From IMG/VR virus record IMGVR_UViG_3300035698_029402, positions 1 to 34,234 of that record: DNA of 34,234 nt. The stretch is one strand, 5' to 3'. Positions 68-7,440 of the stretch are shown one piece after another. The DNA comes from a virus. The notes under the pieces were generated by a model, which was not told the DNA's origin, searched no databases, and was given only the letters and a program-made list of their open reading frames with translations. The stretch's first letter is position 1; the number at the start of each line of letters is the position of its first letter. The position numbers were made by a program, and so were the translations under genes.

Positions 68-82
68 TATAGGGGGGCAGGG

Positions 83-96
83 TATCTCAGAAAATT
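83..96 (+). repeat. Left-end repeat copy 1 (putative transposase site)
   Basis: TATCTCAGAAAATT, identical to the copy at 243-256 in the same orientation, 160 bp apart. It sits about 15 bp inside the inferred phage end, as the L1 site does in Mu. Assignment as a transposase-binding site is inference. Confidence 0.55.
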
Positions 97-242
97 GATA
101 TTGGGGGATTGAGTGAGACGGGTGTGATATTTTTGTGAGACTTTATAGAGGTTTATGGGCGGTCGGCGGGTTAGTCGGGCGCTTTTTTTATAGATGAGAA
201 AAATAGGCGTTTTTGGTGGGTATTTTGTGATTTTTTGCACGC

Positions 243-256
243 TATCTCAGAAAATT
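243..256 (+). repeat. Left-end repeat copy 2 (putative transposase site)
   Basis: Second exact copy of TATCTCAGAAAATT; flanking bases are also similar (G before, A/G-rich after). Spacing from copy 1 is 160 bp, comparable with the spread of L1-L3 sites in Mu. Confidence 0.5.
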
Positions 257-441
257 AGAGAAGTGTATTTTTGTGTTCAGGGTATATTATTACAGGGTTT
301 GGTGGGGTTTTTATGTAAATTTTTGGTTGTAGCTGGTGGCGCTGCTGCTTAAACCAAATGGGGAAAAGTTGGAAATGAGTGGTAAACCGTTATAATACTT
401 ATAGTTAGAGCGCATTTTATCAGGTGTTTTTACGTTTTGGG

Positions 442-482: not shown

Positions 483-719
483 TTATTTTGGTATTGGGTT
501 CGCAAACTTACACTTTGGACATATCTGGTCGGCCGGTTTTAACAACAGCCAGATAAACATAATACCGGCAACAATGAACAGCGGCCAAAATAGAAACGAA
601 ACAAAAAATAAAATAAGAAAGAGTACCCAAAGTCCACAACCCGATCCTTTTATCTGCGCTTTTCCTTCGTAATTACAGTTCGGGCATTTTATTTGTTTTA
701 CCCGCAATACAAATGCCAT
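483..719 (-). CDS. Small Zn-ribbon membrane protein (78 aa)
   Basis: I do not recognise the family. A CPNC knuckle at residues 12-15 and a CPKC knuckle at 67-70 flank a strongly hydrophobic centre (about residues 29-60) that forms one or two membrane segments. Both cysteine pairs could bind one metal ion at the membrane surface. The start has a GAGGGG ribosome site about 7 bases upstream on the minus strand. It lies 14 bp downstream of the lipoprotein gene and is probably co-transcribed with it. Its position between the phage end and the repressor is typical of lysogenic-conversion (moron) genes; a role in altering the host envelope or excluding other phages is only inference. Confidence 0.8.
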   Translation of the reverse strand: MAFVLRVKQIKCPNCNYEGKAQIKGSGCGLWVLFLILFFVSFLFWPLFIVAGIMFIWLLLKPADQICPKCKFANPIPK

Positions 720-733
720 ATTTTTACCCCTCT

Positions 734-1153
734 TTATCCTTTTACGTGAGCCTCATAACCAACCATTACGTGATCAAACTTGTTTTTAAATTCAAATATA
801 CGCTTAAACGGGATTGGTTTTTCCGTACTGCCGCATCGAATGGCAGCGCTGGTCTTACCAACCACATCGCCAGCCTTGATCAGTAGGACTATTATAGTTC
901 CGCGCTGTATTGTATCCCAGGTTATACTGCCGGTATAGAGTGCCTCTCCTTTGATTTGATATTTTTGGGTCCCGAGTTTTTCGATAGTATATTGAATTTC
1001 CATACGTCCATATTGCACGGAGCATGATACCGGCATAGTGTAACATTCACAGACGGCAGGGTCACTTGTTTCCACTGGGCGGCCTATGTAGGGTGAGGCG
1101 CAACCGGAAAGCGGTATTATAACCAGGATGAAGAACCATTTTAATAGTTTCAT
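734..1153 (-). CDS. Putative lipoprotein (139 aa)
   Basis: The N-terminus MKLLKWFFILVIIPLSGCAS is a lipoprotein signal peptide with an LSGC lipobox, so the mature protein would be lipid-anchored at Cys18. The rest is hydrophilic and beta-rich with four further cysteines, and I recognise no domain. An ATG 12 bases upstream is also in frame, but a GGAGG sequence lies just before the ATG at 1151-1153, so that start is preferred. It is followed by the Zn-ribbon membrane gene. An AT-rich region with TATAAA on the minus strand (about 1180-1195) may be its own promoter. Phage lipoproteins expressed from lysogens can block superinfection; that role is not shown here. Confidence 0.82.
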   Translation of the reverse strand: MKLLKWFFILVIIPLSGCASPYIGRPVETSDPAVCECYTMPVSCSVQYGRMEIQYTIEKLGTQKYQIKGEALYTGSITWDTIQRGTIIVLLIKAGDVVGKTSAAIRCGSTEKPIPFKRIFEFKNKFDHVMVGYEAHVKG

Positions 1154-1218
1154 AACGACCTCCATGTGATTCGCTTAATAATTTTTATACTATAAAGGTG
1201 GCGCAAAATAAGCGATAA

Positions 1219-1809
1219 TTAAATTACCTTCTTTTTTATAAATTCCTCTTTTTTTTGTAAAGGGTCCATTTTTATATTTTCCTTTGAGTGCTGCAAGCAT
1301 TGTCGCTCGATAGCGGCAACCCTTGATTCAACGCGATTTATTTGTTTTTTAGCTTTATTTAGTTCAGTTTTAGTTGTTTCTAATTCTTCCTGGTCATCGA
1401 CAGCCTGGGAAAAATAACGGATATTACGTTCCAGGGCTTCAAATGCCACCTTATTACCACTTTTTAAAACCTTTTTTGCGCCTTCGAGCAAGTCAACGAT
1501 TTCCGGGTTTTTATCCAAAATTCCTACCTTATATAAAGAGATCGATTCAGAGACCTGTAATTCTTTTTCAGATTTATCCTTATCTATATATTTTTTCCCC
1601 TTCCCGGTTAAAAGCCAGTTGATATTGACTTTATATGTGTCCTGAATGCGACATAAATGTTCGGCATGCGGAACCCTCCCTTTTATATAAGCGCTGAACG
1701 TACCGTGCGGTATACCAGCTTGTCTAGCAAATACCGTATGTTTCCCAGCAGTATGTAGAGAAACCAACTCTAATAATCGTTCAGCTATTTTTTTTCCCAT
1801 TCGCATCAT
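1219..1809 (-). CDS. CI-type phage repressor (HTH, no protease domain)
   Basis: Residues ~8-72 form an XRE/CI-repressor helix-turn-helix: TVFARQAGIPHGTFSAYIKG, then INWLLTGKG, a common ending of CI-repressor N-domains. The C-terminal half (about 105-180) is a charged coiled coil (EELETTKTELNKAKKQINRV) and not an S24 peptidase, so RecA-triggered self-cleavage is not expected. It is divergent from the Ner/transposase operon, as c is in Mu, and its upstream region carries candidate operators. Three in-frame ATGs (1807-1809, 1804-1806, 1798-1800) compete, none with a clear ribosome site. Likely role: holds the prophage silent by repressing the early promoter near 1817-1846. Confidence 0.85.
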   Translation of the reverse strand: MMRMGKKIAERLLELVSLHTAGKHTVFARQAGIPHGTFSAYIKGRVPHAEHLCRIQDTYKVNINWLLTGKGKKYIDKDKSEKELQVSESISLYKVGILDKNPEIVDLLEGAKKVLKSGNKVAFEALERNIRYFSQAVDDQEELETTKTELNKAKKQINRVESRVAAIERQCLQHSKENIKMDPLQKKEEFIKKKVI

Positions 1810-1881: not shown

Positions 1882-2289
1882 TTAATTGTTCGGTTTCTTC
1901 AAAACAGTTTTAAAAAGTTCAAGGTCGGCTGATTTTAACTTAAAAATAATTTCCACGACCCCGGAAATAGCTGAATGAAGCAAGATAAAGAAAAAAGCGC
2001 CGGTACCCATAACGATTTTATAAACAGCCATGCGAGTCAATTCGTCTGAACTCATAACTTCAGGGAGGACATAAGCCATGCATAATAATGAGAGCAACCC
2101 GATAAACCAGGGTTTTTGGAATAGATTTTTTTTTAATGACGTCGCGTCAGAGATTTTAGCCCGGCTTGTATCCATGTTTATCGGTTTCTGGGGCGGTCGT
2201 GCATTTTTTAATTCGGAGTCTTCATGTGAGATAAAGATCAACATGGCGATTATCGGTGCAAGCGCATCTATTATGTTAATTATGCCCAT
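1882..2289 (-). CDS. Possible membrane protein (135 aa), conflicts with 2078-2332 (+)
   Basis: The translation reads like a real protein, with three hydrophobic stretches (about residues 8-20, 62-78 and 94-114) and a charged end KLKSADLELFKTVLKKPNN. Codon use is ordinary over the whole length, including the part that does not overlap the plus-strand ORF. A CGGAG lies 10 bases before the start. Against it, it lies antisense to a plus-strand ORF with a better ribosome site, and it would put the early promoter inside or antisense to this gene. If real, it forms one leftward unit with the repressor (gap 72 bp). Only one of the two overlapping ORFs is likely to be the main product. Confidence 0.45.
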   Translation of the reverse strand: MGIINIIDALAPIIAMLIFISHEDSELKNARPPQKPINMDTSRAKISDATSLKKNLFQKPWFIGLLSLLCMAYVLPEVMSSDELTRMAVYKIVMGTGAFFFILLHSAISGVVEIIFKLKSADLELFKTVLKKPNN

Positions 2290-2332
2290 AATTTATAAAC
2301 TCCGAGAAGAAAACAAAACAGATAAAGGTTAA
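2078..2332 (+). CDS. Possible small membrane protein (84 aa), conflicts with 1882-2289 (-)
   Basis: ATG is preceded by GGGAGG at a 9-base spacing, one of the better ribosome sites in this region. The stop codon is followed after 3 bases by the Ner-like start, so it would be the first gene of the early operon. The C-terminal third has one membrane segment (AIIGASASIMLIMPIIYKL) and a charged tail. No family recognised. It overlaps an antisense ORF of comparable quality; I judge the two about equally likely. Confidence 0.45.
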   Translation: MHNNESNPINQGFWNRFFFNDVASEILARLVSMFIGFWGGRAFFNSESSCEIKINMAIIGASASIMLIMPIIYKLREENKTDKG

Positions 2333-2335
2333 ACC

Positions 2336-2587
2336 ATGACACCAAAAGAGATCAAATCCGCGATCAAAGCCAAAGGCCTTACACAAAAGAGCATAGCGAT
2401 TAAGATCGGCAAGTCCGAAATAGCCGTGTCGATGACCGTGAATAAAAACATGGTGTCGGATTATATCATGCGGGGCATTGCCGGGGCCATCGGCAATGAT
2501 CCCGTTGACGTGTTTCCCGAGTATTATCTATCCCCGGCAAAGCGCAGCACATCCAAGACCGTGCAGCCGTTCCGGCCTGCTGTTTAA
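2336..2587 (+). CDS. ner: Ner-like DNA-binding regulator (83 aa)
   Basis: A short HTH protein: MTPKEIKSAIKAKGLTQKSI, IAIKIGKSEIAVSMTVNKN, then RGIAGAIGNDPVDVFPEYY. The pattern (initial two helices, HTH, then 'xxIAxAIGxxPxxVFPxxY') is that of Ner/Nlp proteins of Mu-like phages. In Mu, Ner turns down both the early and the repressor promoters during lytic growth. It is the first secure rightward gene after the divergent control region. An AAAGG ribosome site precedes it. The last ~13 residues are basic and proline-rich and outside the usual domain. Confidence 0.8.
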   Translation: MTPKEIKSAIKAKGLTQKSIAIKIGKSEIAVSMTVNKNMVSDYIMRGIAGAIGNDPVDVFPEYYLSPAKRSTSKTVQPFRPAV

Positions 2588-3837: not shown

Positions 3838-4431
3838 ATGCAATTAATACCGGCGGATCAGAACAGATTAGAGGAGCTTGAAACGGTTATCCATAAGAAT
3901 TTTTTGGCATTTTACGAAGTGGGCCGGGCACTCAAGGAGATCCGGACCTGCAAGCTTTACCGGGGCACGCATGAAACGTTTGAACTGTACTGCCGGGAGT
4001 TGTGGGACGTGCAAAAACGGCATGCGAATAAACTTATCGCGGCATCAAAGGTGATAGATATTTTATCCGCCGAAAATGGGGCCAATTGGCCCCAAAACGA
4101 AGCCCAAACCCGCCCCTTAACCCGCCTTGAAACACCGGAACAGCAGATAGAAGCATGGAAAAGAGCGGTTCAGACGGCGCCGAACGGCAGGATCACGGCC
4201 AAGCATGTGAATGATGTTGTAAGGGAGGCGCAGGGTGATGCGGCCCTGAGACGGTCACAGAGTATGAAAGATGCCGTGAACAGCTCGCCGGCCGTGCCGC
4301 AGGCTTTTAAGGACTGTTATTTTTCACTGCTGGATATTATTCGAGACGCCCGTGAAACTAATTTTAAGGGGGCGGACAAGGAAAAGATGCTCCAGTACCT
4401 GGACGGGCTTCGCAGATTCATTGAGGATTGA
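3838..4431 (+). CDS. ParB-HTH-like DNA-binding protein (197 aa)
   Basis: The N-terminal part reads NFLAFYEVGRALKEIRTCKL, then HETFELYCRELWDVQKRHAN and KLIAASKVIDIL. This FYEVGxALxEIR...CxExWxxxxxHANxLI pattern occurs in phage and plasmid proteins with a ParB/KorB-like helix-turn-helix. A Pro/Gln/Arg linker (about residues 82-97) leads to a second conserved block, LETPEQQIEAWKRAVQTAPN, then ITAKHVNDVV. Start ATG at 3838 has AAAGGGG upstream; an in-frame ORF extends further left but without support. The stop overlaps the spacer before the transposase by a few bases. It may assist transposition or segregation. A perfect 16-bp palindrome lies in the linker-coding DNA. Confidence 0.7.
   Translation: MQLIPADQNRLEELETVIHKNFLAFYEVGRALKEIRTCKLYRGTHETFELYCRELWDVQKRHANKLIAASKVIDILSAENGANWPQNEAQTRPLTRLETPEQQIEAWKRAVQTAPNGRITAKHVNDVVREAQGDAALRRSQSMKDAVNSSPAVPQAFKDCYFSLLDIIRDARETNFKGADKEKMLQYLDGLRRFIED
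4078..4093. repeat. Perfect 16-bp palindrome GGGGCCAATTGGCCCC
   Basis: Perfect inverted repeat with no spacer, flanked by A-rich bases on both sides, inside the DNA for the linker of a DNA-binding protein gene. Could be a binding site for that protein or a strong hairpin in the mRNA. Confidence 0.5.
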
Positions 4432-4433
4432 CA

Positions 4434-6578
4434 ATGGATGCACTTACAGTAAAAAAAATAGCACAACTTGATGGCCACAGTATTCAAGCAGTGCACAAGC
4501 GGGCGACAAAAGAGGATTGGATATACTACCCGGGTGCAAACAACACAAAAAAATTTATTTTATCATCCCTGCCCAGGGATATCCGTCTTTTATATAATAA
4601 GGTAAATATCGAATCGGCCCCGCCCCTTCCCATTCCCGCAGATAGAGCCATATCACCAGCCATTCCGCGTCAAACCCAGCGCCTGGCGGGGCCGATCACC
4701 GTCAGCCGGCAGTCACAACAAAAAGCCCTGGCCAAAGCGGACCTGCTCAGACTTTACATGCAGGCCCTTAAAAAAGCGGCCTGGGGTAAAAAGAACCCGG
4801 CCCGTGAGACGTTTGTGCTGGCCTATAATTCCGGGATGGCCTGGCCCCGGCTATATGAGGTGCTGGGGCCGGTCTCCTGGAAAACCATCGAGGGGTGGAA
4901 GCGCCAGGTGAAAAGAAGCGCCGATCCCATGCGCCTGGCGGATCGCCGGGGGACTCACAGGGCAGGGGAATCCCTGATCAGCGATGTCCAGGAAAAAATT
5001 TTACTGCGGTGCCTGCTGCATCCCAACCGGCCCCTGATCGCGGAAGCGATCCGCATGGCCAAGGCGGTGATGGACCAAAAGGGAATTGAAAACGGGTACA
5101 GCGAGTCCACATACCGGCGATGGGTTCATGACTGGAAAACCCACAATATTCATATCTGGACTTTTTCCCGCAAGGGGGCAAAGGCGTGGAATGATGAATG
5201 CGCCTATTATATAGAGCGGGATTACAACCTGATCAACGTGGGCGACATCCTGGTTGCGGACGGGCACGTGCTCAATTTCGAGATAATCAACCCCTGGACC
5301 GGTAAGCCCAAGAGAATGATGATGATACTCTGGTATGATATGAAATCTAATTTCCCTCTGGGCTGGGAGATTTTGCCCACGGAAAACACCCAGGGGATTG
5401 CCAGTGCCCTGCGCCGGGCCATCCTGCGCCTGGGTAAGATTCCGAAGGTGGCATACCTGGACAACGGCAAGGCCTTTTCCAGCAAGTTTTTCAACGGGGC
5501 CAACCTGGAGGAGGCCGGTTTTGCCGGTCTGTTCGAGCGCCTGGGTATGAAGACCATTTTCGCGTGGCCCTATCACGGGCAGTCCAAAACCATCGAGCGG
5601 TTTTTCGGGACATTTGCCGAACTGGAGCGCTGGTGCCCCACCTACACGGGCACGTCCATCGAGAAAAAACCGCCTCGGATGATGCGCGGGGAGCGAATTC
5701 ACAGGAAGGTATATGAGAAAATGACCGGGGGCGGGTGCCTGACACTTGAGCAGGCCCATATGGCCGTGGCAGCCTGGTTTGATCAGTATGTCGCCCGCAC
5801 CCAGAAAGGGCACCTGGCAGGGGCCGCGCCGGCGGAGCTTTTCCTTGAGGGCAGAGGGCCGGGCGTGGATCCGGCAACACTGCAATACCTGATGATGTCG
5901 GCCGAGATTAAACAGATCAGCCGCCAGGGTATCCATTTTCCCGGGCGTAATTATTATAATCCGCTGCTGCATGGCCGGCGTCACGGGGCAATCGTCAGGT
6001 ATGATCTCCAGGATGACAGTGAAATCCTGGTATTTGAAAAATCCGGCGAATATATCTGCTCGGCGCAAAAAGTGGAAAAGGTGCACCCGGCAGCCCGAGT
6101 GCTCGGGACCGACGCTGACGTCGAGAAGCTGAAAAGCCATGTGGAACTGAAAAAGCGGCTGGAAAAGGCGGCAAGCGTGTCAGCCCGGCAGTTCATGCTC
6201 GACGAGGTCCTGCCGGAACATCAGGCCAACCTGGCCAGGGCAGGCGTGACACAACTGGGGCCCCAGACCCCCATGATCGAAAAACAAGCGGTCGAAAAGA
6301 CCGACGATGCCATCCTCCTGGAACTCGCCGAGCGCGAGACCTGGCAGGAGGATGAGACGGCCCTGTTTTTCAAGGCCCTGGCCGACCTGCCCGAGATGGA
6401 ACGATATGAAAAACTGATTGAAGCTGAAATTCGCGGGTGGCTGGTGCCGCAGCAGTGGCAGACGTTTATGAGTTATTACGAACAGACCACCGAATTTGAG
6501 AAGTATGTTGATTATTTTGATGATGCCCGGACCCGGGCGACTATTCTTTATCAGGTGGAAGCAAAAAAAAGTGAATAG
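4434..6578 (+). CDS. Mu-type DDE transposase A (714 aa)
   Basis: Carries out strand transfer at the phage ends for integration and replication. Residues ~1-60 form the Mu-type DNA-binding HTH (LTVKKIAQLDGHSIQAVHKR, then WIYYPG). The catalytic core is an RNase-H fold with D276 (VADGH), D343 (YLDNGKAF) and E388 (SKTIERFFGTF). The 67-residue D-D gap equals that of MuA (D269-D336), while the D-E gap is shorter (45 against 56). A beta-barrel region follows at about 480-565, and the C-terminal helical part probably contacts the MuB partner. Length is near MuA's 663. A TTG two codons earlier is in frame, but GAGG at 4423-4426 points to ATG 4434. The last codons (-KKSE) come from an intergenic repeat. 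Confidence 0.95.
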   Translation: MDALTVKKIAQLDGHSIQAVHKRATKEDWIYYPGANNTKKFILSSLPRDIRLLYNKVNIESAPPLPIPADRAISPAIPRQTQRLAGPITVSRQSQQKALAKADLLRLYMQALKKAAWGKKNPARETFVLAYNSGMAWPRLYEVLGPVSWKTIEGWKRQVKRSADPMRLADRRGTHRAGESLISDVQEKILLRCLLHPNRPLIAEAIRMAKAVMDQKGIENGYSESTYRRWVHDWKTHNIHIWTFSRKGAKAWNDECAYYIERDYNLINVGDILVADGHVLNFEIINPWTGKPKRMMMILWYDMKSNFPLGWEILPTENTQGIASALRRAILRLGKIPKVAYLDNGKAFSSKFFNGANLEEAGFAGLFERLGMKTIFAWPYHGQSKTIERFFGTFAELERWCPTYTGTSIEKKPPRMMRGERIHRKVYEKMTGGGCLTLEQAHMAVAAWFDQYVARTQKGHLAGAAPAELFLEGRGPGVDPATLQYLMMSAEIKQISRQGIHFPGRNYYNPLLHGRRHGAIVRYDLQDDSEILVFEKSGEYICSAQKVEKVHPAARVLGTDADVEKLKSHVELKKRLEKAASVSARQFMLDEVLPEHQANLARAGVTQLGPQTPMIEKQAVEKTDDAILLELAERETWQEDETALFFKALADLPEMERYEKLIEAEIRGWLVPQQWQTFMSYYEQTTEFEKYVDYFDDARTRATILYQVEAKKSE

Positions 6579-6698
6579 TGAGAAGTGAGAAGTGAAAAGC
6601 AAAAACAGTGAAAAGTGAATAGTGAAAAGTGAGAAGTGGTGGAGTCGCTTCGGGCTTCGCCTGCGGCTACGCCCGATAAATCGCTCCATCTATTTTAT
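6571..6698 (+). repeat. Intergenic repeat A, long form (GTGAATAGTGAAAAGTG family)
   Basis: Starts within the last codons of the transposase. Tandem GTGAATAGTG/AAAAGTG units (6571-6636) are followed by a hairpin. Outer arms TGGAG...CTCCA and an inner CGGGC...GCCCG enclose an extra ~29-base insert that the short forms lack. The downstream part (CTCCATCT, then T-rich, then AAAAAAGGAGG) continues into the ribosome site of the MuB gene. Nearly identical to copy C at 9540-9643. Confidence 0.85.
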
Positions 6699-6714
6699 AA
6701 AAAAGGAGGATGTA

Positions 6715-7440
6715 ATGACGATTGAGATTAATCCCGTGTTTATTCAGACCAGAAATGTGCGGAATTTTTCCGTGATGATGAAGGCCCTGGACCTGGGGGC
6801 CGGTGAGGGACGCCTGGCCCTGGTGTGGGGCCGTGCCGGAAGAGGGAAGACGCGCACCAGCCAGTGGTATCAGGCCAATAACGGCGGCGTGTACATGCGC
6901 ATGGCCACGGTGTGGCGCACGTCCGAGCTCTATTTTCTCCAGTCCCTGGCCAGGGAGTTGGGGATTGCCGCTCCGGCCGGGCGCAAAGGGCCGGTATTTG
7001 CCCAGGTTATGGACGCCTTGATCGATGAGCCTTGCGCCGTCTTTCTGGATGAGATCGAAAAACTGTCCAAATTTTTCCTGGACGTGATCCGGGACCTGTC
7101 TGACCTGTCGGCCTGCCCCATTATTTTGATCGGGGAAGCTGAGCTTTACAGCTACATGCGCCAGAACCGGCGGGTGTGGAGCCGGACCTACCAGCAGATG
7201 GAGTTTGCGCCCATTGATGCTGCGGACATCGTGATCTATGCCAGGGACCTGACGGGCGGAGCAATCAGGCTGCCTGTGTCCGCGGCAAGGATCCTGCACG
7301 GATCATCCGACGGAGACTTCCGGATCGTTCGCCGGGACGTGATCCAGGTGATACATTTTGCCAACGGCCGGGGAACGGTTGAGATTACCGATGACCTGGT
7401 GAAAACGGCAATCAAGACCGGCCTGAGCGGGAGGCGATAA
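6715..7440 (+). CDS. MuB-like AAA+ ATPase (241 aa)
   Basis: Transposition partner of the transposase: in Mu, ATP-bound MuB coats target DNA, delivers it to MuA and protects phage DNA from self-insertion. Walker A is G39-T46 (GRAGRGKT) and Walker B is AVFLDEIEK with D112/E113. A sensor-1-like segment (CPIILIGEAEL) follows. Length is shorter than MuB (312) and lacks an obvious N-terminal HTH, as in other Mu-like phages whose B protein is of the AAA_22 type. GGAGG lies 6 bases before ATG 6715; an in-frame extension to 6622 would translate the repeat and is rejected. The stop overlaps the next ATG (TAATG). Confidence 0.93.
   Translation: MTIEINPVFIQTRNVRNFSVMMKALDLGAGEGRLALVWGRAGRGKTRTSQWYQANNGGVYMRMATVWRTSELYFLQSLARELGIAAPAGRKGPVFAQVMDALIDEPCAVFLDEIEKLSKFFLDVIRDLSDLSACPIILIGEAELYSYMRQNRRVWSRTYQQMEFAPIDAADIVIYARDLTGGAIRLPVSAARILHGSSDGDFRIVRRDVIQVIHFANGRGTVEITDDLVKTAIKTGLSGRR

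Follow-up and report, generated by a model that had tools for sequence, protein, structure and literature searches.

In the Mu-like phages of Pseudomonas aeruginosa, regions of genomic plasticity lie mostly in the left arm (PMC4378225). For the Mu-like phage Fc02, a lysogen transcript was described that spans the repressor together with e4, the accessory gene that follows, and next to the repressor genes active in exclusion overlap on opposite strands (PMC9936078). The lysogeny-module lipoprotein Ltp is able to exclude phages (PMC3952083). Human LITAF binds zinc by four cysteines and inserts monotopically with both ends in the cytosol; eukaryotic LITAF acts in endosomal membrane trafficking, and one structural study of it presents NMR-based models, crystallisation having failed (PMC5142333). 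The locus described herein carries a lipoprotein gene and a LITAF-like gene between the left end and the repressor of a Mu-like phage. The identity of both genes and of their slot is held with high confidence. The overall reading, which we favour by a small degree, is that they are two independent lysogenic-conversion (moron) genes, expressed in the lysogen and changing its envelope.

The window, meaning the whole stretch of DNA analysed, is the complete IMG/VR virus record IMGVR_UViG_3300035698_029402 with 34,234 bases. The ORF list and Pfam matches show a Mu-like plan, with the repressor oriented leftward and a Ner-like gene, a MuA-type transposase and a MuB-type ATPase oriented rightward (Table 1). 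The names Ner and MuB are given provisionally, from fold and place. The left end is placed near its tabulated position, not to the base, by the motif it appears to share with L008 and L016; bases 1 to ~57 form an open frame and are presumed to be host DNA. The repeats TATCTCAGAAA are found upstream of MuA as two sites each in L003 and L009 and as one site each in L011/L022, L013/L020, L014/L023 and L017. All nine transposase relatives in genome contigs are deltaproteobacterial, including four Desulfosarcina widdelii loci and one of Desulfofustis glycolicus. The hosts of the phage are therefore probably sulfate-reducer relatives, a reading drawn from these relatives and not from an identification of the window's own host.

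Table 1. Features of the left part of the window and of related short genes. Positions are those of the window unless preceded by a locus name; a dot means that no strand applies.
Feature	Position	Strand	Basis or remark
Left phage end (putative)	about 70-74	.	GGGGGCAGG, common to inferred left ends of L008 (~304) and L016 (~6)
Transposase-site-like repeats TATCTCAGAAA	83 and 243, within 70-260	.	recur upstream of MuA in relatives
LITAF-like zinc-ribbon membrane protein, 78 aa	483-719	-	PF10601 2.4e-7, 31.3 bits, cut-off 23.8
AGAGGGG, Shine-Dalgarno-like, ahead of LITAF-like gene	727-733	-	immediately past lipoprotein stop codon
Lipoprotein, 139 aa	734-1153	-	lipobox LSGC, Ala at +2; relatives in 4/389 genomes
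Shine-Dalgarno GGAGGT of lipoprotein	1158-1163	-	sequence; 4 nt ahead of ATG
CI-type repressor	1219-1809	-	PF07022 9.4e-6, 26.3 bits vs cut-off 22; PHROG transcription regulators down to 8.1e-11
Membrane-type ORF, 135 aa, upstream of repressor	1882-2289	-	49% identical relative, same place in L008
Ner-like HTH gene, first rightward early gene	2336-2587	+	PF13693 1.2e-5
MuA-type transposase	4428-6578	+	PF09299 4e-13; bait for finding related loci
MuB-type AAA ATPase	6622-7440	+	PF13401 8.8e-13
Short LITAF-like genes	L037:1269-1502, L038:158-352, L042:3038-3229		opposite tail-like genes

An earlier note on this DNA had placed two leftward, envelope-directed accessory genes between the phage end and the repressor, on the strand of the latter. 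The ORF check and homology find both at these positions on the minus strand, like the repressor. Their accessory nature is borne out by the relatives L003 and L008, whose mechanical listings show nothing leftward between the repressor and the left end, whether ORFs of at least 55 aa or of at least 50 aa are counted; the genes are thus absent between the same neighbours, as is characteristic of morons. That the products are directed to the envelope agrees with the lipobox LSGC of one and with the CxxC pairs around a hydrophobic core of the other, which passes the PF10601 cut-off. The GC contents of the two genes are 38% and 44%, compared with 52% for the window, but that of the repressor is likewise low (37%).

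The lipoprotein gene begins with the ATG at 1153 and stops at 734, the mechanical ORF beginning at 1165, and its product starts with a signal peptide and lipobox, MKLLK-WFFILVIIP-LSGC. Its length is unusual: when 70-1218 was dinucleotide-shuffled 2000 times, 10 of the shuffles had an ATG ORF that reached its 139 codons. Searches with the single sequence were empty in Pfam, PHROGs, NCBIfam, PDB, INPHARED and IMG/VR, and a phylum sample of 395 genomes gave four weak matches (best E 8.5e-4), none reading as a short lipoprotein ORF. The view of the gene as an orphan was dropped once a sample of one class gave relatives in four of 389 genomes (G539, G610, G629 and G658), all confirmed by a profile. 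Two of them are 34% identical over almost the full length (E 1.2e-19 and 4.0e-19) and two are weaker; because of these relatives at E ~1e-19 the gene is taken as real. C18, which is the lipidated cysteine of the lipobox, Y22, G24, C35 and C44 are invariant in all four rows of the alignment, and the fifth family member, from G629, shows the same cysteines by eye. Three relatives gave nothing over cut-off in Pfam, and the profile found no match among viral contigs and an unconvincing best match in the PDB (E 1.1). The predicted structure is poor (pLDDT 31.7). About 1.2 kb from the relative in G629 lies a gene that reads by eye like a tyrosine recombinase. At L121:7493-10252, another relative adjoins an HSDR_N_2 gene and a DUF4156 lipoprotein, with an apparent group II intron reverse transcriptase on the opposite strand (by eye); this region looks like a mobile or defence-type one.

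The LITAF-like protein carries CPNC at residues 12-15 and CPKC at 67-70, which flank the hydrophobic core (KD19 maximum 2.85), and C12/C15 and C67/C70 are invariant in four of four rows. Its start at 719 lies 14 nt beyond the stop codon of the lipoprotein gene. An ATG ORF of 78 codons was reached in 392 of 2000 dinucleotide shuffles of 70-1218, and length is therefore a weak argument for this gene. It is taken as real because of its conservation in L016, where 40 of 48.2 synonymous sites, a saturated value, and 27 of 185.8 nonsynonymous sites differ from the window, a purifying pattern. The copy in L016 is 77% identical over 77 residues and carries a C-terminal extension; further identities to the window protein are 85% in L123 and 53% each in L028 and L125. 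L016 (35.6 bits) and L028 (25.0 bits) also pass the PF10601 cut-off. Such genes are rare among the sampled genomes: five of the 395 genomes of the phylum sample, one being that of L016, and none of 14 control genomes contain one over cut-off. A profile of the long type recovers two of the 395 genomes (G001 and G380) and three of the 389 (G001, G467 and G703), the protein of G703 being of the short type. In the structure model, likewise poor with a mean pLDDT of 61.5, helices span residues 28-41 and 45-60, and Foldseek returned one match, at E 7.2. Neither cassette protein has a match in PADLOC, one better than E 0.016 in PHROGs, or one better than E 1.4 in the PDB by sequence. The sole relative of studied role that we encountered is the distant eukaryotic LITAF, by which the bacterial role is not settled.

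The earlier note had regarded the two genes as a possible system; a single co-inherited one is not supported. In L016, a MAG contig of 5.6 kb from a second Mu-like phage, the LITAF-like gene follows directly after the repressor in the same slot and orientation, without the lipoprotein gene, and among the 389 genomes the lipoprotein set listed above and the LITAF-profile set do not overlap. Thus, an obligate pair seems unlikely; with so few genomes in either set, and with drafts among them in which genes can be missed, this evidence does not count against every partnership. The search for the pair in other transposable phages, which the earlier note had proposed, gave a divided result, as the slot recurs and the pair itself is split. 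The lipoprotein and the LITAF-like gene look like independently travelling passengers. A two-part exclusion system, in which both proteins would act jointly across the envelope, would fit the short spacing between the genes, the presence in L054 and L017 of a lipoprotein beside a CxxC-pair membrane gene of other families, and the LITAF-like gene with an exported gene in L123. It is nonetheless improbable, given the lone LITAF-like gene of L016, the disjoint genomes and partner lipoproteins in L017 and L069 that are unrelated to that of the window. The nearest layout is that of L054, where the repressor is followed by a DUF4468 lipoprotein, an exported protein and a LITAF-like protein of the short type. 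The last has no PF10601 match at E 1 by itself and is 39% identical to that of L042 in the short-type alignment; with L054 added by hand, the six-row short-type alignment matches the long type at probability 99.2. Among viral contigs, the lipoprotein of L054 found only itself. In L017, a DUF7424 lipoprotein, missed even by a loosened lipobox pattern, precedes an RDD membrane protein whose N-terminal zinc ribbon is sub-threshold, and in L069 the slot holds a DUF4468 lipoprotein. Neither shows homology to the lipoprotein of the window, the signal peptide alone being aligned in L069. Envelope genes assembled repeatedly in one slot would fit these loci better than a single system does.

The recurrence of the slot was surveyed in 90 sequences, the window included, that reduce to 78 distinct MuA loci, in 63 of which a leftward repressor-like gene was recognised. 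Slot ORFs were defined as leftward ORFs of at least 70 aa lying at most 250 nt from the repressor or from the preceding slot ORF. By this rule, 29 of the 63 loci have at least one slot ORF, 23 have none, and 11 leave no room on the contig; six of the 23 (L002, L053, L015, L020, L022 and L023) carry leftward genes farther from the repressor. A membrane-grade segment occurs in 18 of the 42 slot ORFs of the 29 loci and in 49 of 557 rightward ORFs, these being two of 100 before MuA (early) and 47 of 457 after it (late). The enrichment (Fisher odds ratio 7.8, p 3.7e-8) is a post hoc figure that ignores kinship and counts mechanical ORFs, some of them spurious-looking, together with the two of the window. 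A membrane-grade segment combined with two CxxC motifs occurs in six of 42 slot ORFs, none of 100 early ORFs and two of 457 late ORFs; without the two ORFs of the window, 16 of 40 slot ORFs are membrane-grade and five of 40 also have two CxxC motifs. The LITAF-like gene of L054 is outside the 42 slot ORFs, masked by an overlapping frame.

By motif scan and inspection, nine of the 78 loci have a CxxC-pair membrane gene left of the repressor and on its strand: the window, L002, L009, L016, L017, L053, L054, L056 and L088. They remain from 12 leftward upstream rows scored for two CxxC motifs and a hydrophobic stretch, after L081, L019 and L095 were removed on inspection, being taken for an exported nuclease-like protein or for spurious frames. 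A curated zinc-ribbon cut-off is passed by three of the nine (the window and L016 with PF10601, L056 with Zn_ribbon_3), the other six being assigned by motif. Elsewhere, the unfiltered scan gave four rightward upstream rows in 302 kb and 16 downstream rows in 659 kb. In four Mu-like loci, proteins combining CxxC pairs and a membrane segment (L002:326-874, L053:1697-2212, L070:12561-13085 and L085:11140-11766) have an exported C-terminal domain that is alike by eye. Four Mu-like phages also share, to the left of the repressor, a family of membrane proteins with the motif LLFxVRRSVRYHxRR (L007:855-1379; L021:4337-4894, the same phage as L012; L072:209-766; L091:294-833). It is SLATT-like by eye, with no Pfam match over cut-off in L007, L021 and L091 (best SLATT_4, E 0.12, in L021).

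Two genes merely trapped by transposition as neutral passengers would account for the patchy spread and for the empty leftward slots in the mechanical listings of L003 and L008. This explanation is very unlikely, considering the surplus of synonymous over nonsynonymous differences between the window and L016 and the repeated capture of a similar kind of protein. Other leftward cargo includes RelA/SpoT-type proteins in L020 and L023 and an 8xMP protein in L015, which is located 661 nt off the repressor and was placed by the repressor, not by the left end. RelA/SpoT-type and 8xMP families are linked to phage defence. The RelA/SpoT-type proteins of the two Mu-like prophages each form a leftward pair with a partner (L020:5519-7227 and L023:2068-4142); the partner matches NA37 over cut-off in L023 and not in L020, and the RelA/SpoT-type protein of L020 has a weak PADLOC match to PDC-S33 (9.7e-6). 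A slot shared with possible defence genes, together with the small size and hydrophobicity of the LITAF-like protein, would also suit a membrane-acting abortive-infection effector. Against such an effector stand the missing PADLOC match and relatives that occur singly among opposite-strand genes in the viral contigs L037-L040 and L042, and we consider it the least probable of the readings.

As a single query, the LITAF-like protein of the window found nothing in IMG/VR or INPHARED; with an alignment of three rows, six phage loci carrying short relatives were recovered. Short LITAF-like genes lie opposite to the strand of their neighbours, tail genes by eye, in viral contigs L037, L038, L039, L040 and L042, L038-L040 encoding the same protein. 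Further ones occur in viral contig L041 and in G703, the latter adjoining tail-like and integrase-like genes. Of three proteins scanned with PF10601, that of L042 passes (27.6 bits) and those of L037 (21.3) and L038 (19.0) are below the cut-off. The proteins of L042 and L054 found nothing in INPHARED, nor did that of L028 in plasmids. Among the titles listed as matches in open-access PubMed Central, no description of a phage LITAF-like or zinc-ribbon moron was found. Morons are an already known kind of gene; LITAF-like zinc-ribbon membrane proteins as recurrent phage cargo seem to be new.

In G467 (L123), the gene after the 85% identical one codes for an exported protein, with an SH3_3 match below threshold (E 2.3e-4). 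A strong DNA hairpin lies past this second gene (z -4.46; none of 200 shuffles as good) and has attC-like letters. The upstream stretch folds like its shuffles (z 0.32, 124/200), which counts against an integron cassette. A strict attC scan did not confirm a cassette here, its one site, at 1304-1391, lying well away from the gene. Three integron integrases over cut-off lie at least 0.89 Mb from the gene even if the contig is circular, and a below-cut-off match (55.7 bits) lies ~7 kb from it; a cassette origin of this copy is kept as a lead only. Around L125, which has a 53% identical LITAF-like protein, and L119-L121, which have lipoprotein relatives, no other protein of the window was matched in the 13.7-20 kb examined, so that these copies lie outside close relatives of the phage. 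They and the L123 copy with its exported neighbour would be in keeping with an envelope conversion unrelated to phages, concerning membrane or metal stress, surface properties or nutrient use. This alternative is rather unlikely, since the slot also holds the RelA/SpoT-type and 8xMP proteins.

The favoured reading of two independent conversion genes requires expression in the lysogen, which is likely. Consensus scans found no 9-of-12 promoter between the repressor and the lipoprotein gene, and no minus-strand terminator-like site between repressor and cassette or near the cassette. Read-through from the repressor into the cassette is the simplest reading and a likely one. The ORF at 1882-2289, which has no match in Pfam, PHROG or NCBIfam, is a possible first gene of this transcript; a rightward ORF (2078-2332, plus strand) overlaps it and is partly kept in L008 (36% over 81 aa). 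On the minus strand, 1144-1116 within the lipoprotein gene scores as a 10-of-12 promoter-like site, and the LITAF-like gene could therefore own a separate promoter; the scan gave 12 promoter-like sites overall, compared with 7.5 expected.

In the proposed mechanism, two moron genes sit one after the other in the slot that separates the repressor from the left end of the Mu-like phage, and in the lysogen the repressor transcript would continue leftward through both. As a rule, lipoproteins with Ala at +2 are sorted to the outer membrane. The lipoprotein would thus be exported, lipidated and brought to the outer membrane, and its periplasmic domain may be held by a disulfide between Cys35 and Cys44. 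By analogy with eukaryotic LITAF, the hydrophobic core of the other protein would dip into the inner membrane and turn back at Trp-Pro, a re-entrant hairpin that would leave the two CxxC knuckles on the cytoplasmic face with one zinc between them. Jointly or each alone, the two proteins would alter the envelope of the lysogen, an effect that is somewhat probable. The preferred use would be exclusion, with the inner-membrane protein disturbing or guarding the entry site of incoming phage DNA and the lipoprotein interfering in the periplasm or at the outer membrane. Since neither Fc02 nor Ltp reveals the role of the present genes, conversion is regarded as likely, exclusion of the DNA of other phages, argued by analogy, as possible though doubtful, and the mechanism as conjectural.

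A broader and speculative reading, to which we give little weight, is that prokaryotic LITAF-like proteins are zinc-clamped proteins of the inner membrane which travel as a mobile class, block the entry of DNA or sense it, and share ancestry with eukaryotic LITAF. The carriers meant are temperate phages (Mu-like repressor slots, late-gene insertions and prophage ends) and perhaps gene cassettes. A single odd cassette is herewith turned into a testable class of small zinc-ribbon-like membrane proteins, repeatedly acquired by Mu-like and other phages and, in the former, adjoining the lysogeny switch. If exclusion holds true, a membrane mechanism would be added to prophage-borne defence in sulfate-reducer relatives. 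In addition, tiny prokaryotic versions of the LITAF fold are now on offer.

Compared with human LITAF/SIMPLE, the window protein likewise has two CxxC knuckles flanking a hydrophobic segment, and the inner Cys-to-Cys distance is 52 residues as opposed to 49 (C99-C148) in human LITAF (PMC5142333). Human LITAF has a proline-rich N-terminal region, whereas the window protein has 11 residues before its first Cys and no such region. LITAF domains are described as conserved in eukaryotes (PMC5142333), whereas the present one is found in a phage. The lipoprotein resembles Ltp of Streptococcus phage TP-J34, which is likewise encoded among the lysogeny genes of a temperate phage (PMC3952083). This likeness is one of gene place and product type, and the host envelope is different; an Ltp-type lipoprotein blocks DNA injection of an incoming phage, whereas exclusion by that of the window is conjectural. 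Fc02, with e4 and olg1/gene 10, is a Mu-like phage whose repressor is likewise flanked by accessory genes, a likeness of position; e4, lying downstream of it, has a transcript in the lysogen and is left without assigned function in that study (PMC9936078). The DUF7424 lipoprotein of L017 and the DUF4468 lipoprotein of L069, the two compared directly with that of the window, show no homology to it. These two and the DUF4468 lipoprotein of L054 share with it the same side of the repressor, the same strand and an export signal.
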